Positions 40,463 to 64,000 of a stretch of DNA of 64,000 nt are shown here, piece after piece (the first letter of the stretch is position 1; each line of letters opens with the position of its first letter). The notes beneath the pieces were generated by a model. That model was not told where the DNA came from and ran no database searches. It saw nothing but the letters and a program-made list of their open reading frames with translations. The stretch is from Bradyrhizobium sp. DOA9 (GTDB lineage: Bacteria; Pseudomonadota; Alphaproteobacteria; Rhizobiales; Xanthobacteraceae), in contig NZ_DF820425.1 in NCBI RefSeq assembly GCF_000617845.2, forward strand, positions 3,461,725 through 3,525,724, given 5' to 3'. The position numbers and the translations under genes were made by a program.

Positions 40463-41106
40463 CTGTAAACGCTTGAGCGAACATACACCTTGAAGTCGAA
40501 CCAGGCGAATCGCCCCGGAATGACGACGAGAGCCGCGGCAGGCGGCTGGTCAAAATGACCCGTCGGGCAAAACACCTGCACCTCCGTCAACCCCTCTGCG
40601 CGAAAATATTCTTCTTTTCAGAATTTCGGATTTATGGCATAGGACGCTCATCCCGGCCCTCCCAGAGGGGCGCTTCGCGATCGTCACGAGATGCGGGTCG
40701 GGGTGCGGTGGACGCGGTAGCGCCGGCGCGGAAGGCGATGACAGGGACGGGCGACCGTTGAGTCAGGCGCGACGCGGGACGACCGGCGCGGTCACAGCGG
40801 TTTGGTCAATGGTCAGGGGCGCGCACATAAGCTCCGGGCGCTGAGGCCGGGCCGTCCGCGGACGGAGAAGTCGTGTGGTCCTGACGCCCGAAGGCTGGCG
40901 TCAAGCAATGCGGTGGTGCGGCGGCCCGACCGGGCGCGCATCGATCAGCCGCAACGCGACGGGGGCAACAGTGCATCGCTCCCCGAGGAGCAACTGTGCT
41001 GAAATAGACCGCCGATCAGCCGGCCTCAAGGCTGGCGCGAAGACGCGCCCCCGCCTTCGGCGGCTGACGGCCTTGACCCCGTCCGCTCGCCGGTCTGTCG
41101 GCTTGG
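40463..41106. other. accessory debris, no intact gene
   Basis: About 640 bp between the vapB remnant and the IS110 element. Broken frames such as KIFFFSEFRIYGIG, SSRPSQRGASRSSRDAGRGAVDA and KSCGPDARRLASS resemble spurious ORFs that I associate with a dispersed intergenic sequence in Bradyrhizobium genomes. That recognition is from memory, not a search. No coding gene is supported. Confidence 0.4.
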
Positions 41107-58690: not shown

Positions 58691-59479
58691 ATGAGCGGCG
58701 CACGCATCAGCGCGCTTGCGATCCTGCGCGGCCAGATCGAGCGCATCGAGACGGCGGAGGTCGTGCATCCGCGCGATCGTATCGCGCTCGGCCATGGCGC
58801 GGCCGACGCCGCGCTGAAAGGCGGACTCGCGCGCGCGGCGATCCACGAGGTGTTTTGTGAGGGGCGTCAGGGCGCGGCCGCGACGGGCTTCGTCATGGGC
58901 CTTGCGGGACGCGTGAGCGCGCGCCGGCCGCTATTGTGGGTGCGGCAGGATTTTTCGGAAGTGGAAACCGGCGCCCTGTCGATGAGCGGGCTCGCCGAGC
59001 TTGGCCTCGATCCGCGCCGTGTGGTGATGGTGCGCGCCGCCGATGTCGAGAGCGCGCTGCGCACCTCGGCCGACGCGCTTGCCTGCGATGCGCTGGGGGC
59101 CGTCGTGCTCGAGCTCTGGGGCGAGACCAGGCAGTTTGATCTCGTGGCAAGCCGCAAGCTGACGCTCGCCGCGCAAGGCTCGGGCGTTACCGGCCTCTTG
59201 CTGCGGATGGCGGCGCAGCCGCTGCCTTCGACCGCGGAAACACGATGGATGCTGCGTGCGGCGCATTCGCCGCCGGGGGCCGCCTGGAGCGTTTGGGGCG
59301 CGCCGCGCTTCGATGCCGAGCTGTTGCGCAATCGTCATGGCCCCTGCGGCCGGTGGATCATGGAATGGAATTGTGATGAGTGCCAGTTCAGTGAACCGTC
59401 GACGTATCCTCAGCCTGTGGCTGCCGCGCCTGCCCATCGACAGGATCCAGCGCTTCTTCAACAGCGCCGGGCTGGGTAA
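58691..59479 (+). CDS. imuA: SOS mutagenesis protein ImuA
   Basis: A 262-residue RecA/SulA-like protein, first gene of the damage-inducible mutagenesis cassette. Landmarks: IHEVFCEGRQGAAATGFVMGL, RRPLLWVRQDFSEVETG, LGAVVLELWGE and ending with RWIMEWNCDECQF. The ATG has AAGGAG 8 nt upstream. Its last 104 nt overlap imuB in another frame, a feature known from rhizobial imuAB. With ImuB and DnaE2 it supports translesion synthesis. Confidence 0.92.
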   Translation: MSGARISALAILRGQIERIETAEVVHPRDRIALGHGAADAALKGGLARAAIHEVFCEGRQGAAATGFVMGLAGRVSARRPLLWVRQDFSEVETGALSMSGLAELGLDPRRVVMVRAADVESALRTSADALACDALGAVVLELWGETRQFDLVASRKLTLAAQGSGVTGLLLRMAAQPLPSTAETRWMLRAAHSPPGAAWSVWGAPRFDAELLRNRHGPCGRWIMEWNCDECQFSEPSTYPQPVAAAPAHRQDPALLQQRRAG

Positions 59480-60971
59480 AGCCAATCATCAGCCTGATAT
59501 CGTCGTCATCAAGGACAATAATGCGCTGGTGATCCATGCGCTGGACGAGGCCGCCGAACGCCTCGGCCTGTATATCGGCCAGCCGCTGGCCAATGCGCGG
59601 GCGATGTGTCCGGACTTGCGTGTGTTCGACGCCGATCTCGTGGCCGATGCGAAGACGCTCAGCGACATCGCCGATTGGTGCGACCGCTTCACCCCGCTGG
59701 TGGCGCTCGATCCGCCGCACGGGCTGTTCCTCGACATTACCGGCTGTGCCCATCTGTTCGGCGGTGAGGCCGCGCTGCTCAAGACGCTGGTCCGCGCCTT
59801 GGCCCGGCAAGGCTTTGCCGTCAGCGCGGCGATTGCGGGCACCTCGGTCTGTGCCCGCACGCTGACGCGGCAGGCATCCGGCACCATCGTGGCCGATGGC
59901 GGCGAGGCGGAGGCGATCAGGTCGTTTCCAGTCTCCGCGCTCGGTGCAGGTGAGGCCATCACCACCGGCCTGCGCCGCGCCGGGCTGAAGACCATCGGCG
60001 ATGTCGCATCGCGCGAGCGGAGCGAGATCACGGCGCGGTTCGGCGCCCGGTTCTCCACGCTGCTCGCCCATGCGCTGGGGCAGGGCGATGCGCCGATAAG
60101 TCCGCGCAAACCGCTGCCCGACTACATCGTGGAAAAACGCTTTGCCGAGCCGATCGCGACCGACACCATGATCGCGATGACGCTGTCGCGCCTGGCGGAC
60201 ACGTTGATCGCCTCGATGGAGAAACAGGGCAAGGGCGCGCGGCGGCTGGAGGCCGCCTTCTTCCGCACCGACGGCGTGGTGCGCACGATCACGGTCGAGA
60301 CCGGTCGCCCCGTGACGCGGAGCGCGGTGATCGACCGCCTGTTCCGCGAGCGGCTCGATGCACTCGCCGATCCCCTCGATCCCGGCTTCGGCTTCGACAT
60401 GGTGCGGCTGTCGGCGAGCCGCACCGAGATCGTGGCGCAGGAGCAGCGCGATCTCGACGCGCATGTCCACGACAATGACGAGCTCGCCGCGCTGATCGAC
60501 CGCATCGCCGCGCGCATCGGGGGAAAACGCGTCGTCGTGCACTTGCCGCAGGACACCCACATCCCCGAACGTGCGGTGCTGGCCGCATCGGCGCAGCATC
60601 ATCTCACCGCCGCCATGCAGGCCACATGGCCCGCGCGCACCGAGAGCGAGCCGCCGCTGCGTCCCTTGCGGCTGTTCGACAAGCCGGAGCCGATCAAGGT
60701 GCCGTTCGCGACCGTGCCCGACGGCCCGCCGCATCAATTCACCTGGCGCCGCGCGCTGCATGCGGTGGTGCGGGTGGAGGGGCCCGAGCGCATCGCGATG
60801 GAATGGTGGCGGCAGGACGGCAAGCAGCTGACGCGGGATTATTTCCGCATCGAGGATGCCGAGGGCCTGCGTTTCTGGATCTTTCGCGACGGTCTCTATG
60901 AAGGCGAGGTGTTCGACGGTGACGGCAAGCCTGCGTCTCCCGGCTGGTATGTGCACGGTCTCTTCGCATGA
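59376..60971 (+). CDS. imuB: Y-family polymerase-like protein ImuB
   Basis: A 531-residue member of the Y-family that lacks the full catalytic acid set and acts as a clamp-binding adaptor for DnaE2. N-terminal palm region: RILSLWLPRLPIDRIQRF, LDPPHGLFLDITGCAHLFGGE; then fingers and little-finger regions (GLRRAGLKTIGDVA, PRKPLPDYIVEKRFAEPIAT). The ATG at 59376 is used because it gives the MSASSVNRRRILSLWLP start and lies inside imuA. The stop overlaps the dnaE2 ATG (ATGA). Confidence 0.92.
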   Translation: MSASSVNRRRILSLWLPRLPIDRIQRFFNSAGLGKANHQPDIVVIKDNNALVIHALDEAAERLGLYIGQPLANARAMCPDLRVFDADLVADAKTLSDIADWCDRFTPLVALDPPHGLFLDITGCAHLFGGEAALLKTLVRALARQGFAVSAAIAGTSVCARTLTRQASGTIVADGGEAEAIRSFPVSALGAGEAITTGLRRAGLKTIGDVASRERSEITARFGARFSTLLAHALGQGDAPISPRKPLPDYIVEKRFAEPIATDTMIAMTLSRLADTLIASMEKQGKGARRLEAAFFRTDGVVRTITVETGRPVTRSAVIDRLFRERLDALADPLDPGFGFDMVRLSASRTEIVAQEQRDLDAHVHDNDELAALIDRIAARIGGKRVVVHLPQDTHIPERAVLAASAQHHLTAAMQATWPARTESEPPLRPLRLFDKPEPIKVPFATVPDGPPHQFTWRRALHAVVRVEGPERIAMEWWRQDGKQLTRDYFRIEDAEGLRFWIFRDGLYEGEVFDGDGKPASPGWYVHGLFA

Positions 60972-63900
60972 ATACGCCTGGCTATGCCGAGATCGGCATC
61001 ACCACGAACTTCTCCTTCCTGCGCGGCGGCTCGGATCCGCGCGCCTATGTGCATCAGGCCAGCAAGCTCGGGATTCCCGCGATCGGCATCGCCGACCACA
61101 ACACGCTCGCCGGCGTGGTGCGCGCCTGGAACGAGCTCGACAATGACAAGGTGCTGCACAAGCCGAAACTGTTGATCGGCGCCCGCATCGTCTTCATCGA
61201 CGGCACGCCCGACATCCTGGTCTATCCACGCGACCGCGCCGCCTATGGCCGGCTGTGCCAGCTCCTCACGAGGGGCAAGCGCGGCGACGACATCACGCGG
61301 ATCGAGAAGGGCGAGTGTCATCTCAGGCTTGACGATCTCCTGGAATTCTCGGAAGGCCAGCTCCTGGTCCTGACGCTGCCGCATCGCTTCGAAGCCGTGC
61401 AGGCGCTGGATGTCCTCGCAAAGCTCAAAGCCAGTCGCGCCGATGGCGTCTGGCTGGCGGCGAGCCTGCTCTATCGCGGCGACGACAAGCGTCGTCTCTC
61501 GCGGCTCGATGATCTCGCCGCAAAGGCCAAGGTGCCGCTGCTCGCGACCAACGAGGTGCTGTATCACGATCCCGGCCGCCGTCCGCTTCAGGACGTGCTG
61601 ACCTGCATCCGGGAAAAGACCACGATCGAGGCGATTGGGCGGAAGCTCGAGGCCAATGCCGAGCGCTTCCTGAAAACGCCGCGCGAGATGGCGCGGCTGT
61701 TCCGCGATGTCCCCGAGGCAGTCGCGGAGACCATGCGCTTCGCGGACGCAATCGAGTTCTCGCTCGACCAGCTCAAGTACCAATATCCCGACGAGCCGGT
61801 GCCGCCGGGCAAGACCGCGCAGGGGCATCTGGAGGATCTGACCTGGGCGGGCGTCGACAAATATTTCGACGGCAAGATCGACGACAAGCTGCGCGCCACC
61901 CTGAAGAAGGAGCTCGCGCTGATCGCCGAGCTGAAATACGCGCACTACTTCCTCACCGTGCACGACATCGTGCACTACGCGCGCAGCCAGAACATTTTGT
62001 GCCAGGGCCGCGGCTCGGCGGCGAATTCGGCCGTGTGCTACGTGCTCGGCATCACCTCGGTCGACCCGACCAAGGTCGACCTGTTGTTCGAGCGCTTCAT
62101 CTCCAAGGAACGGCTGGAGCCGCCCGATATCGACGTCGATTTCGAGCATTCGCGGCGCGAAGAGGTGATGCAATATGTCTACCGCCGCTACGGCCGCCAC
62201 CGCGCCGCGATCATCGCCACCGTCATCCATTACCGCCCGCGCAGCGCCATCCGCGACGTCGGCAAGGCGCTCGGCCTGACCGAGGACGTCACCGCCGCGC
62301 TCGCCGATACCGTCTGGGGCAGCTGGGGCAAGGGCCTCAACGACATGCAGGTCCGGCAGGCCGGGCTCGATCCGCAAAATCCCATGATCAATCTCGCGGT
62401 CGAGCTCGCGACCGAGCTGATCGAATTCCCGCGCCATCTTTCCCAGCATGTCGGCGGCTATGTGCTGACCCAGGACCGGCTCGACACCTATGTGCCGATC
62501 GGCAATGCCGCGATGGACGACCGCACCTTCATCGAATGGGACAAGGACGACGTCGACGCGCTTCATATGATGAAGGTCGACGTGCTCGCCCTGGGCATGC
62601 TGACCTGCATCAGGAAATGTTTCGATCTGATCGACCAGCACAAGGGCGAGCGTTTTGTGCTGGCGAGCGTCCCGCAGGACGATCCCAACGTCTATGACAT
62701 GCTGTGCCGCGGGGAATCGCTCGGCGTGTTCCAGGTCGAGAGCCGCGCCCAGATGAACATGCTGCCGCGGCTGAAGCCGCGCACCTTCTACGATCTCGTC
62801 ATCGAGGTCGCGATCGTGCGTCCCGGGCCGATCCAGGGCGACATGGTGCATCCTTACTTGCGGCGGCGGAACGGGCTGGAAAAGGTGAGCTATCCGTCTC
62901 CGTCGCCGGAGCATGGCGACAAGGACGAACTCTACAAGGTGCTGCACAAGACGCTCGGTGTCCCGCTGTTCCAGGAGCAGGCGATGCGCATCGCGATCGA
63001 GGCCGCACATTTCACCTCCGAGGAAGCCAACGGCCTGCGCCGCTCGATGGCGACCTTCCGCAATGTCGGCACCATCGGCCAATACGAGGAGAAGCTGATC
63101 GGCAACATGGTCGCCCGCGGCTACGACCCCAATTTCGCCAAAAGCTGCTTTGACCAGATCAAGGGATTTGGCTCCTACGGCTTTCCGGAGAGCCATGCCG
63201 CGAGCTTTGCGCAGCTGGTCTACATCTCGTCGTGGCTGAAGCACTATCATCCCGACGCCTTCTGCTGCGGTCTGTTGAACTCGCAGCCGATGGGCTTTTA
63301 TGCGCCGGCGCAGATCGTCGGCGATGCCCGCAAGAACGGTGTCGAGGTCCGCGACATCGACGTGTCCTACAGCTTTGCGCAGAACACGCTGGAGCAGGGG
63401 AGCGGCAAGTACTGCGCCGTGCGCCTCGGCTTCCGCCAGATCGACGGCTTCCATTGGCTGGATGAAGATGAAGAGAGACTGAAACGCTCCCAGCTGTCAT
63501 TCCGGGATTTGCCTGAAGAATCTTCCGTGATTGGGCCGGTCTTGCCGCAGGCTCCGTTCACCTCTCCCCAACGGGGAGAGGTCGATTTGCTCCTCGCGAT
63601 GCGAAGCATCGTCGAGTGCAAATCGGGTGAGGGGGCTCAGGTCCCTCGAGAGACCCCACCCCTCACCCGCGCCTTCGGCGCGACCTCTCCCTATGGGAGA
63701 GGTGTAGCACCTCCGATGCCTCAGCAGGACTGGGCCGACCGCATCGTCGCCGCGCGCAACCGTCGCCCCTTCACGTCACTGGAAGATTTCGCCCGCGACA
63801 CCGGCCTGCCCAAGCGCGCGCTGATCCTCTTGGCGGACGCCGATGCGTTCCGCTCGCTCGGGCTCGACCGCCGCGAGGCGCTGTGGCAGGTGCGGCGGCT

Positions 63901-64000
63901 GCCCGACGACGTGCCGCTGCCGCTGTTCGAGGCGGCGACCGCGCGCGAGCAGCCGGACGAAGGCGCAAAACCGCTGCCGGTGATGCCGCGCGCCGAGCAG
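60968..64000 (+). CDS. dnaE2: error-prone DNA polymerase III alpha subunit DnaE2 (3' end outside window)
   Basis: 1011 codons are visible without a stop. An N-terminal PHP domain (EIGITTNFSFLRGGSDPRAYV, GIADHNTLAG) is followed by the polymerase III palm with catalytic acids in PPDIDVDFEHSRREEV, then AIVRPGPIQGDMVHPYLRRR, and SYGFPESHAASFAQLVY. DnaE2 performs translesion synthesis with ImuA and ImuB. After GFHWLDEDEERL an extra stretch of about 70-80 residues appears before DWADRIVAARNRRPFTSLEDFA; much of it is encoded by a dispersed palindromic repeat (63560-63703). The C-terminal OB-fold region is beyond the window. Confidence 0.93.
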   Translation, partial: MNTPGYAEIGITTNFSFLRGGSDPRAYVHQASKLGIPAIGIADHNTLAGVVRAWNELDNDKVLHKPKLLIGARIVFIDGTPDILVYPRDRAAYGRLCQLLTRGKRGDDITRIEKGECHLRLDDLLEFSEGQLLVLTLPHRFEAVQALDVLAKLKASRADGVWLAASLLYRGDDKRRLSRLDDLAAKAKVPLLATNEVLYHDPGRRPLQDVLTCIREKTTIEAIGRKLEANAERFLKTPREMARLFRDVPEAVAETMRFADAIEFSLDQLKYQYPDEPVPPGKTAQGHLEDLTWAGVDKYFDGKIDDKLRATLKKELALIAELKYAHYFLTVHDIVHYARSQNILCQGRGSAANSAVCYVLGITSVDPTKVDLLFERFISKERLEPPDIDVDFEHSRREEVMQYVYRRYGRHRAAIIATVIHYRPRSAIRDVGKALGLTEDVTAALADTVWGSWGKGLNDMQVRQAGLDPQNPMINLAVELATELIEFPRHLSQHVGGYVLTQDRLDTYVPIGNAAMDDRTFIEWDKDDVDALHMMKVDVLALGMLTCIRKCFDLIDQHKGERFVLASVPQDDPNVYDMLCRGESLGVFQVESRAQMNMLPRLKPRTFYDLVIEVAIVRPGPIQGDMVHPYLRRRNGLEKVSYPSPSPEHGDKDELYKVLHKTLGVPLFQEQAMRIAIEAAHFTSEEANGLRRSMATFRNVGTIGQYEEKLIGNMVARGYDPNFAKSCFDQIKGFGSYGFPESHAASFAQLVYISSWLKHYHPDAFCCGLLNSQPMGFYAPAQIVGDARKNGVEVRDIDVSYSFAQNTLEQGSGKYCAVRLGFRQIDGFHWLDEDEERLKRSQLSFRDLPEESSVIGPVLPQAPFTSPQRGEVDLLLAMRSIVECKSGEGAQVPRETPPLTRAFGATSPYGRGVAPPMPQQDWADRIVAARNRRPFTSLEDFARDTGLPKRALILLADADAFRSLGLDRREALWQVRRLPDDVPLPLFEAATAREQPDEGAKPLPVMPRAEQ
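63560..63703. repeat. dispersed palindromic repeat inside dnaE2 coding sequence
   Basis: ACCTCTCCCC/GGGGAGAGGT at 63560-63581, CGATTTGC/GCAAATCG flanking a further stem at about 63583-63626, and CCTCACCCGCGCCTTCGGCGCGACCTCTCCC...GGGAGAGGT at 63661-63703. This is the CTCTCCC...GGGAGAGG type of intergenic repeat that is frequent in bradyrhizobial genomes. It keeps the dnaE2 frame open. Confidence 0.8.

Follow-up and report, generated by a model that had tools for sequence, protein, structure and literature searches.

A loop in the (HhH)2 region of the error-prone DNA polymerase DnaE2 of Bradyrhizobium appears to be a tolerated and recurrent in-frame landing site for dispersed palindromic repeats, a reading to which we assign a probability of roughly 0.8. 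At this one site of dnaE2, two unrelated classes of repeats are found, alone or stacked, with the reading frame kept open, and the rest of the gene is under strong purifying selection. The type of linker present at the site has changed many more times than a single gain of each type would require, and one copy of the repeat designated type B has collapsed by an in-frame deletion between its terminal direct repeats.

The dnaE2 gene and its linker

The window, i.e., the whole 64-kb stretch of DNA that was analyzed, belongs to a genome of 7.85 Mb (G000). Its relevant features are given below with the evidence on which they are based.

60968..64000, + strand, running past the window end: dnaE2, error-prone DNA polymerase III alpha homologue (ORF; end read in locus L009; NF004225)
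63482..63724, + strand: hypervariable linker, residues 839-919, (HhH)2 region (anchor alignment of 111 genus loci; AlphaFold2; loose alignment with E. coli DnaE)
63495..63507, + strand: TGTCATTCCGGGA, leftover 5' arm of a type-A (CGTC-REP-like) element (arm counts in A linkers; scan of the window with A linkers)
about 63557..63705, + strand: type-B palindromic repeat, in frame, ~50 codons, residues 864-913 (blastn matches in its own genome)
63560..63582, + strand: left terminal hairpin of the repeat, ACCTCTCCCC-AAC-GGGGAGAGGT (sequence, repeat analysis)
63625..63668, + strand: central stem of the repeat, GGGTGAGGGG ... CCCCTCACCC (sequence, predicted fold)
63683..63703, + strand: right terminal hairpin of the repeat, ACCTCTCCC-TAT-GGGAGAGGT (sequence, repeat analysis)

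The dnaE2 ORF starts at 60968 and encodes a product of 1190 amino acids in all, of which the 1010 residues inside the window score 1373 bits with the NCBIfam profile NF004225 (error-prone DNA polymerase, DnaE2; cut-off 939). Two ORFs that precede it (58691-59479 and 59256-60971) may be imuA and imuB. An AlphaFold2 model of DnaE2 matched bacterial DnaE chains at VIA with Z scores of 27-38, several with high rmsd, the best match being 5lew (Z 37.9, rmsd 12.3, 733 aligned). An earlier note on this DNA had spoken of a replicative polymerase; the NF004225 match corrects this to DnaE2, a translesion polymerase that PMC3919608 describes as nonessential and linked to damage-inducible error-prone synthesis. 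Among named relatives, the closest segment (93% to the window) is that of Bradyrhizobium sp. CCBAU 51765. Directly 3' of the dnaE2 stop codon, outside the window (G000:C1:3526264, read in L009), lies a CGTCATTGCGAGCGCAGCGAAGCAATCCA-type inverted pair that resembles a CGTC REP dimer.

The linker comprises 81 amino acids and is bounded by the conserved segments ...GFHWLDEDEERL and QDWADRIV.... It contains the type-B repeat, whose bounds were set by where genomic copies align and across the whole of which the dnaE2 frame stays open. Like Rickettsia palindromic elements (RPEs), this is a dispersed palindromic repeat of about 150 bp. Its inverted arms (20-21 nt, 80-81% complementary) are within the size range of MITE terminal inverted repeats (15-30 bp), and the left and right terminal hairpins form a 19-nt direct repeat (79%) with a spacing of 123 bases, or 41 codons. 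The region 63555-63708 has a predicted folding energy of -102.3 kcal/mol (z = -10.4 against dinucleotide shuffles), and the fold of minimum energy has the left and right terminal hairpins pairing with one another and not each on itself. The ends of the element, ACCTCTCCC and GGGAGAGGT, are free of the CGTC/TGTC tag of the CGTC REP superfamily. The loop had been expected to be basic, which its composition does not bear out: the linker has 9 K/R and 8 D/E residues, and the repeat part 6 and 5, respectively.

Upstream of the B element, within the same linker, sits the type-A half-arm at 63495-63507. When the 64-kb window was scanned with linkers, the only matches were at 63482-63729 and in one 28-base type-A stretch at 40506-40533. 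The previous account, which invoked a single repeat, was right about the type-B insertion and incomplete with regard to this second, unrelated half-arm and to the A, B, C, and D occupants found across relatives.

The two halves of the repeat have some similarity to the Rfam whalefall-1 RNA (RF01762), with 25.1 bits for 63558-63634 (+ strand) and 20.3 bits for 63659-63705 (- strand), both short of the gathering score of 37. Possibly, what is known as the candidate RNA whalefall-1 is one half of a dispersed palindromic repeat.

Dispersed copies of the repeats

Dispersed copies were counted by blastn (E ≤ 0.001) with whole linkers as queries (63540-63720 for type B), and the counts of related types overlap. 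The type-B query had 59 matches in its own genome; several copies account for two matches each, and many of the matches come from D-like relatives and not from B itself. With type A, there were 59 matches in G000, 67 in G046, and 50 in G031; with type C, 56 in G010, 89 in G004, and 16 in G000; and with type D, 56 in G050, 73 in G038, and 41 in G000. The earlier note had proposed a genome search for copies of 63560-63703, bounds close to the ~63557-63705 delimited here, and such copies do exist.

To locate these copies, we asked for each place whether any frame was open across it with coding-like sequence on both sides. By this test, in which L212 was left out of the counts, just one of the 40 distinct B/D-like places in G000 was intragenic (dnaE2 alone; 9 of the 40 match over just 28-63 bases), as were none of the 12 type-A places. 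The proposal that a repeat normally located between genes is read in frame within dnaE2, with no stop codon, is upheld. A protein search with the translated repeat returned two further places in the genome, both intergenic by ORF maps (one locus, L172, is the same copy as L002).

The 40 places are held by 39 loci, 18 of which (dnaE2 included) are closest to the B core and 21 to the D core. They are thus a mixed B/D class, and the view that all 40 are type-B copies is ruled out. When the cores were compared with one another, C matched D at E 5e-8 and B matched D only faintly, at E 0.013, and A against B, C, or D gave nothing better than E 0.1. The C-D match rules out four mutually unrelated families, and the most that can safely be said is that there are two unrelated classes: type A on its own, and B, C, and D together as a loose class with hairpin motifs in common. 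Genomic copies of 90-220 bases have on average 2.33 of six frames open (27 copies matching B) or 2.00 of six (9 copies matching A), so that chance insertions that keep the frame should not be rare.

The same site across the genus

A DnaE2 match was present in all 117 genomes of the genus that were searched. Five genomes (G035, G041, G045, G090, and G096), with matches that were incomplete or reached a contig end, were left out, and of the 112 loci obtained, 111 were usable (L116, at a contig end, was dropped). A second match in G014, G016, G076, and G105, 63-66% identical to the query, looks like another DnaE2.

Linker length ranges from 9 to 111 residues over the 111 loci, and both anchors are in one open frame in every locus. 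Type A accounts for 65 linkers, C for 13, D for 8, B for 5, and a B+D tandem for 1; 4 are remnants or odd, and 15 are empty, with 9 or 15 residues. In line with the check that the earlier note proposed, there are relatives without the repeat and relatives with a different one there. A blastn search against the core elements (E ≤ 1e-4) gave a match in 94 of the 111 linkers, i.e., 65/65 A, 5/5 B, 21/21 C/D, the tandem, and 2 of the 4 remnants, and in none of the 15 empty linkers. Every A, B, and empty row received the same type by this assignment as by our typing, and the 21 rows typed as C or D all fell in C/D. Visual inspection was the basis for calling four linkers (L048, L086, L088, and L105) remnants or odd, and three (L034, L053, and L055) were typed by hand, in agreement with blastn.

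The type-A arms TCATTCCGGG and CCCGGAATGA, with at most one mismatch, are both found in 56 of the 65 A linkers, with the TGTC seen by eye; the arm TGTCATTCCGGGA, with the same tolerance, is in 59 of 68 A-type linkers if remnants are included. The frame as translated is open in all 96 filled linkers, other frames being open just in part, and the translated motifs have a constant frame within the genus. Named genomes gave a similar picture: in the best 80 of 191 relatives, a set picked by similarity to the window and hence biased towards filled sites, 79 linkers have a repeat-core match and 41 are identical to one of the 111.

Tandem linkers were observed in L096, L223, and L224 (D+B, with D first in L223 and L224), in L226 (B, part of D, A), and in L087 and L289 (A+D, with A first in L289), and the B allele is present without D in L015/L221 and with D in L096/L223. 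In L215, the B allele has collapsed to one hairpin, with 99 bases, i.e., 33 codons, missing between two copies of ACCTCTCCC. Given the 123-base (41-codon) spacing of the same repeats in the window, a comparable collapse there would keep the frame. By eye, the linkers of L086 and L283 look like collapsed B elements with one ACCTCTCCC-type hairpin left.

Turnover and inheritance of linker types

When linker type was placed, as four states, on a dnaE2 tree from which the linker had been removed, 32 changes were counted, with a minimum of 3 and a mean of 40 for shuffled labels; none of 200 label shuffles gave 32 or fewer. The fewer changes than with shuffled labels indicate that linker type is partly inherited with the gene. 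Counting only well-supported branches still leaves 23 changes for A, 17 for C/D, 8 for empty linkers, and 6 for B.

Over all pairs, the Spearman correlation of linker with flank distance was 0.06 for the far 5' flank, 0.26 for the nearest 400 bases, and 0.15 for the 3' flank, and flank-flank correlations were 0.65 and 0.82. The linker-flank correlation was 0.21-0.64 within empties and 0.22-0.42 within type A, the latter again suggesting that part of the linker is inherited with the gene. Concordance of type between nearest neighbors (106/111 rows) was 0.53-0.56 in the intervals between position -534 and the linker and 0.60 within the 150 bases that directly follow the linker, compared with ~0.41 when shuffled. 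It was 0.40 at 75-225 after the linker, 0.56 at -834 to -684, and 0.38-0.51 in the remaining intervals, and because of such exceptions away from the linker the local peak is modest.

The ratio of divergence beside the linker to far divergence was 2.83 and 1.94 in 31 sister pairs of different type and 2.36 and 1.55 in 40 pairs of the same type, and exchange footprints in the flanks of sister pairs were too faint for breakpoints to be mapped. With so little extra divergence beside the linker, exchanged tracts would have to be short. Non-repeat bits of the linker are common to B alleles from separate parts of the tree (e.g., L010 and L011), which makes one insertion followed by exchange likelier than repeated identical insertion.

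The site in other genera

Linkers of 2-19 amino acids were found in all 30 loci examined in other genera of the family (L122-L151), a sample of best contiguous matches that is biased towards empties. Since short linkers extend across several genera, the empty state is likely ancestral. Eight loci from two genera, g20 and g40, that were picked for split matches have inserts of 60-80 residues; two more listed genomes in each genus have contiguous matches. A C-core match is present in seven of these eight inserts. The C element is common to L154 (g20) and L016, with 84% over 103 aligned bases, in a different codon phase, and with an alignment score of 108 compared with at most 31 in 200 shuffles. 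The L154 peptide motif recurs in three of four g40 linkers, and the insert of L158 (g40) has matches elsewhere in genomes, i.e., 26 in G240, 17 in G155, 3 in G176 (g20), and 0 in G224.

As the peptide is not conserved across frames, what recurs would be the DNA element and not the peptide. Alternatively, the different frame in the other genus could have arisen by compensating frameshifts within one old insertion. L160 (G189, genus g45) may carry a repeat-derived insert that is offset downstream from the usual site by a few residues; the anchors of this locus are badly aligned, and it was excluded from all counts. In an order-level search, the full-length matches listed outside the family, several of which may be other DnaE paralogues, span ~756-852 bases by eye and have no insertion of such size.

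Constraint and structure of the loop

In the same 34 disjoint same-type pairs, pN/pS was 0.64 for the linker and 0.11 for the flanks; for empty linkers it was 0.27 (29 pairs). The corresponding pS values were 0.14 and 0.33, a gap partly forced by the requirement of 80% or more linker identity within a pair. A linker pN/pS below 1 suggests that some constraint on the loop or the palindrome remains. In an AlphaFold2 model made with 100 aligned sequences (mean pLDDT 67.9, pTM 0.60), residues 849-918 have pLDDT under 50, between values of 78-92 (801-840) and 60 (841-850) on one side and 84-93 (921-970) on the other. In an alignment with E. coli DnaE that is loose there, the site falls in the (HhH)2 region, at about residues 840-855. 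The low-confidence loop and the difference in pN/pS are in accord with the suggestion of the earlier note that the linker is variable and a tolerated hot spot, and the model with its suggestion of a probably disordered loop.

Proposed origin of the insertions and alternative explanations

We propose that the elements insert by their normal mobility and at random with respect to frame, and that selection retains open-frame insertions only. Once one repeat is in place, further repeats may land beside it, and short recombination tracts, to which the distance and tree statistics point, may shuffle linker alleles between strains. The protein would thereby gain a long, probably disordered loop, and the polymerase would keep working.

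A preference of the repeats' mobility enzyme for this DNA, e.g., for existing palindromes, is possible, if on the low side, and is compatible with tolerance of the insertions. Such targeting would account for several kinds and tandems being piled at one site, and for the 5' half-arms of type A that lie beside other types (in 6 of 8 D, 3 of 5 B, and 2 of 13 C linkers). Against it, inspection by eye revealed neither a shared target sequence nor a duplication, such as a target-site duplication at the D insertion of L223/L224 as compared with L221. In addition, empty alleles have no palindrome (median fold z -0.25, lowest -2.5, in 14 linkers), so that there was no palindrome to which the first insertion could have been directed.

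It is improbable, in our estimate, that the linker is a contingency site at which switching of repeats tunes translesion activity, with lineages selected for different settings and the loop placed at the hairpin of the first HhH motif. The frequent changes of linker type would fit such a role, as would the location in the (HhH)2 region (by the loose alignment), which has been modeled against the ImuB thumb (PMC12926913); REP insertions in repair genes have also been speculated to help make mutators (PMC3733652, in its main text). However, the linker pN/pS of 0.64, the finding of the same element in two frames, and the persistence of empties in 15 of 111 strains are what mere tolerance would give. 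We see a similarly slim chance for a cassette site, at which Bradyrhizobium strains would exchange repeat-encoded loops through short recombination tracts, the loops being favored for altering the contact of the mutagenic polymerase with ImuB or DNA. If this were true, an SOS mutator would be tuned by intergenic repeats.

Still less credible is a role of the mRNA, in which a very stable hairpin would impede ribosomes or RNases and keep DnaE2 production low, the peptide being a by-product. Filled linkers do mostly fold far better than shuffles, with a median z of -8.0 for A, -5.2 for B, -7.6 for C, and -8.0 for D, but any recently inserted palindrome would fold in this way, and poorly folding linkers persist, both filled (L072, -1.4; L048, -2.1; L086, -0.6) and empty. 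Finally, ordinary protein sequence that resembles the repeats by chance would agree with the frame open in all 111 linkers and with pN/pS below 1, and is ruled out by dozens of relatives of the element at other places in the genomes, by the empty sites, and by the short linkers in all 30 best contiguous matches from other genera.

The strains provide a natural set of variants in which a single position of the protein is filled by several different palindromic repeats, empty, stacked, or collapsed, with the enzyme around it conserved. How intergenic repeats enter proteins is an old question that becomes directly testable with existing strains. A note of caution is that the length of DnaE2 in Bradyrhizobium reflects repeats.

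Comparison with known systems

RPEs are palindromic repeats of ~150 bp that are translated in frame within functional genes (PMC10969869). The type-B repeat is like them in being open in frame in dnaE2, whose flanks have a pN/pS of 0.11, and, judging by its open frame, it is presumably translated. The two differ in that RPEs occur in many unrelated genes and here one of 40 B/D-like places in G000 is genic, with a single site gathering several kinds of repeats. They also differ in that, in place of one conserved peptide frame, the C element is read in two codon phases in different genera (L016 and L154).

A second comparison is with REPs. In the text of PMC3733652, REP-tagged proteins include DnaE2, and CGTC and GTAG REPs are described in DNA-repair genes. 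Type A resembles a REP dimer of the CGTC superfamily (TGTCATTCC ... GGAATGA), whereas the type-B element of the window has no CGTC tag at its ends. The main text of that article gives no species or position for DnaE2 and is silent on whether one DnaE2 site can hold several kinds of repeats or tandems or undergo collapse or turnover. It also describes recB of two Xanthomonas species with different REPs at about the same site of one repair gene; this is a likeness to our case, although it concerns one species pair and not a genus-wide dnaE2 site with many alleles. Br-REP1 and Br-REP2 (PMC5082802) are from the same genus and have ATTCCGGG-type palindromes like type A, but the accessible text describes them in intergenic regions and 3'-UTRs only. 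A literature search of article text, i.e., apart from figures and supplements, found no report of several repeat kinds turning over at one DnaE2 site. Thus, translated palindromes are known from Rickettsia and REP-tagged DnaE2 has been recorded, and what the present data add is that several kinds of repeats turn over at one site.
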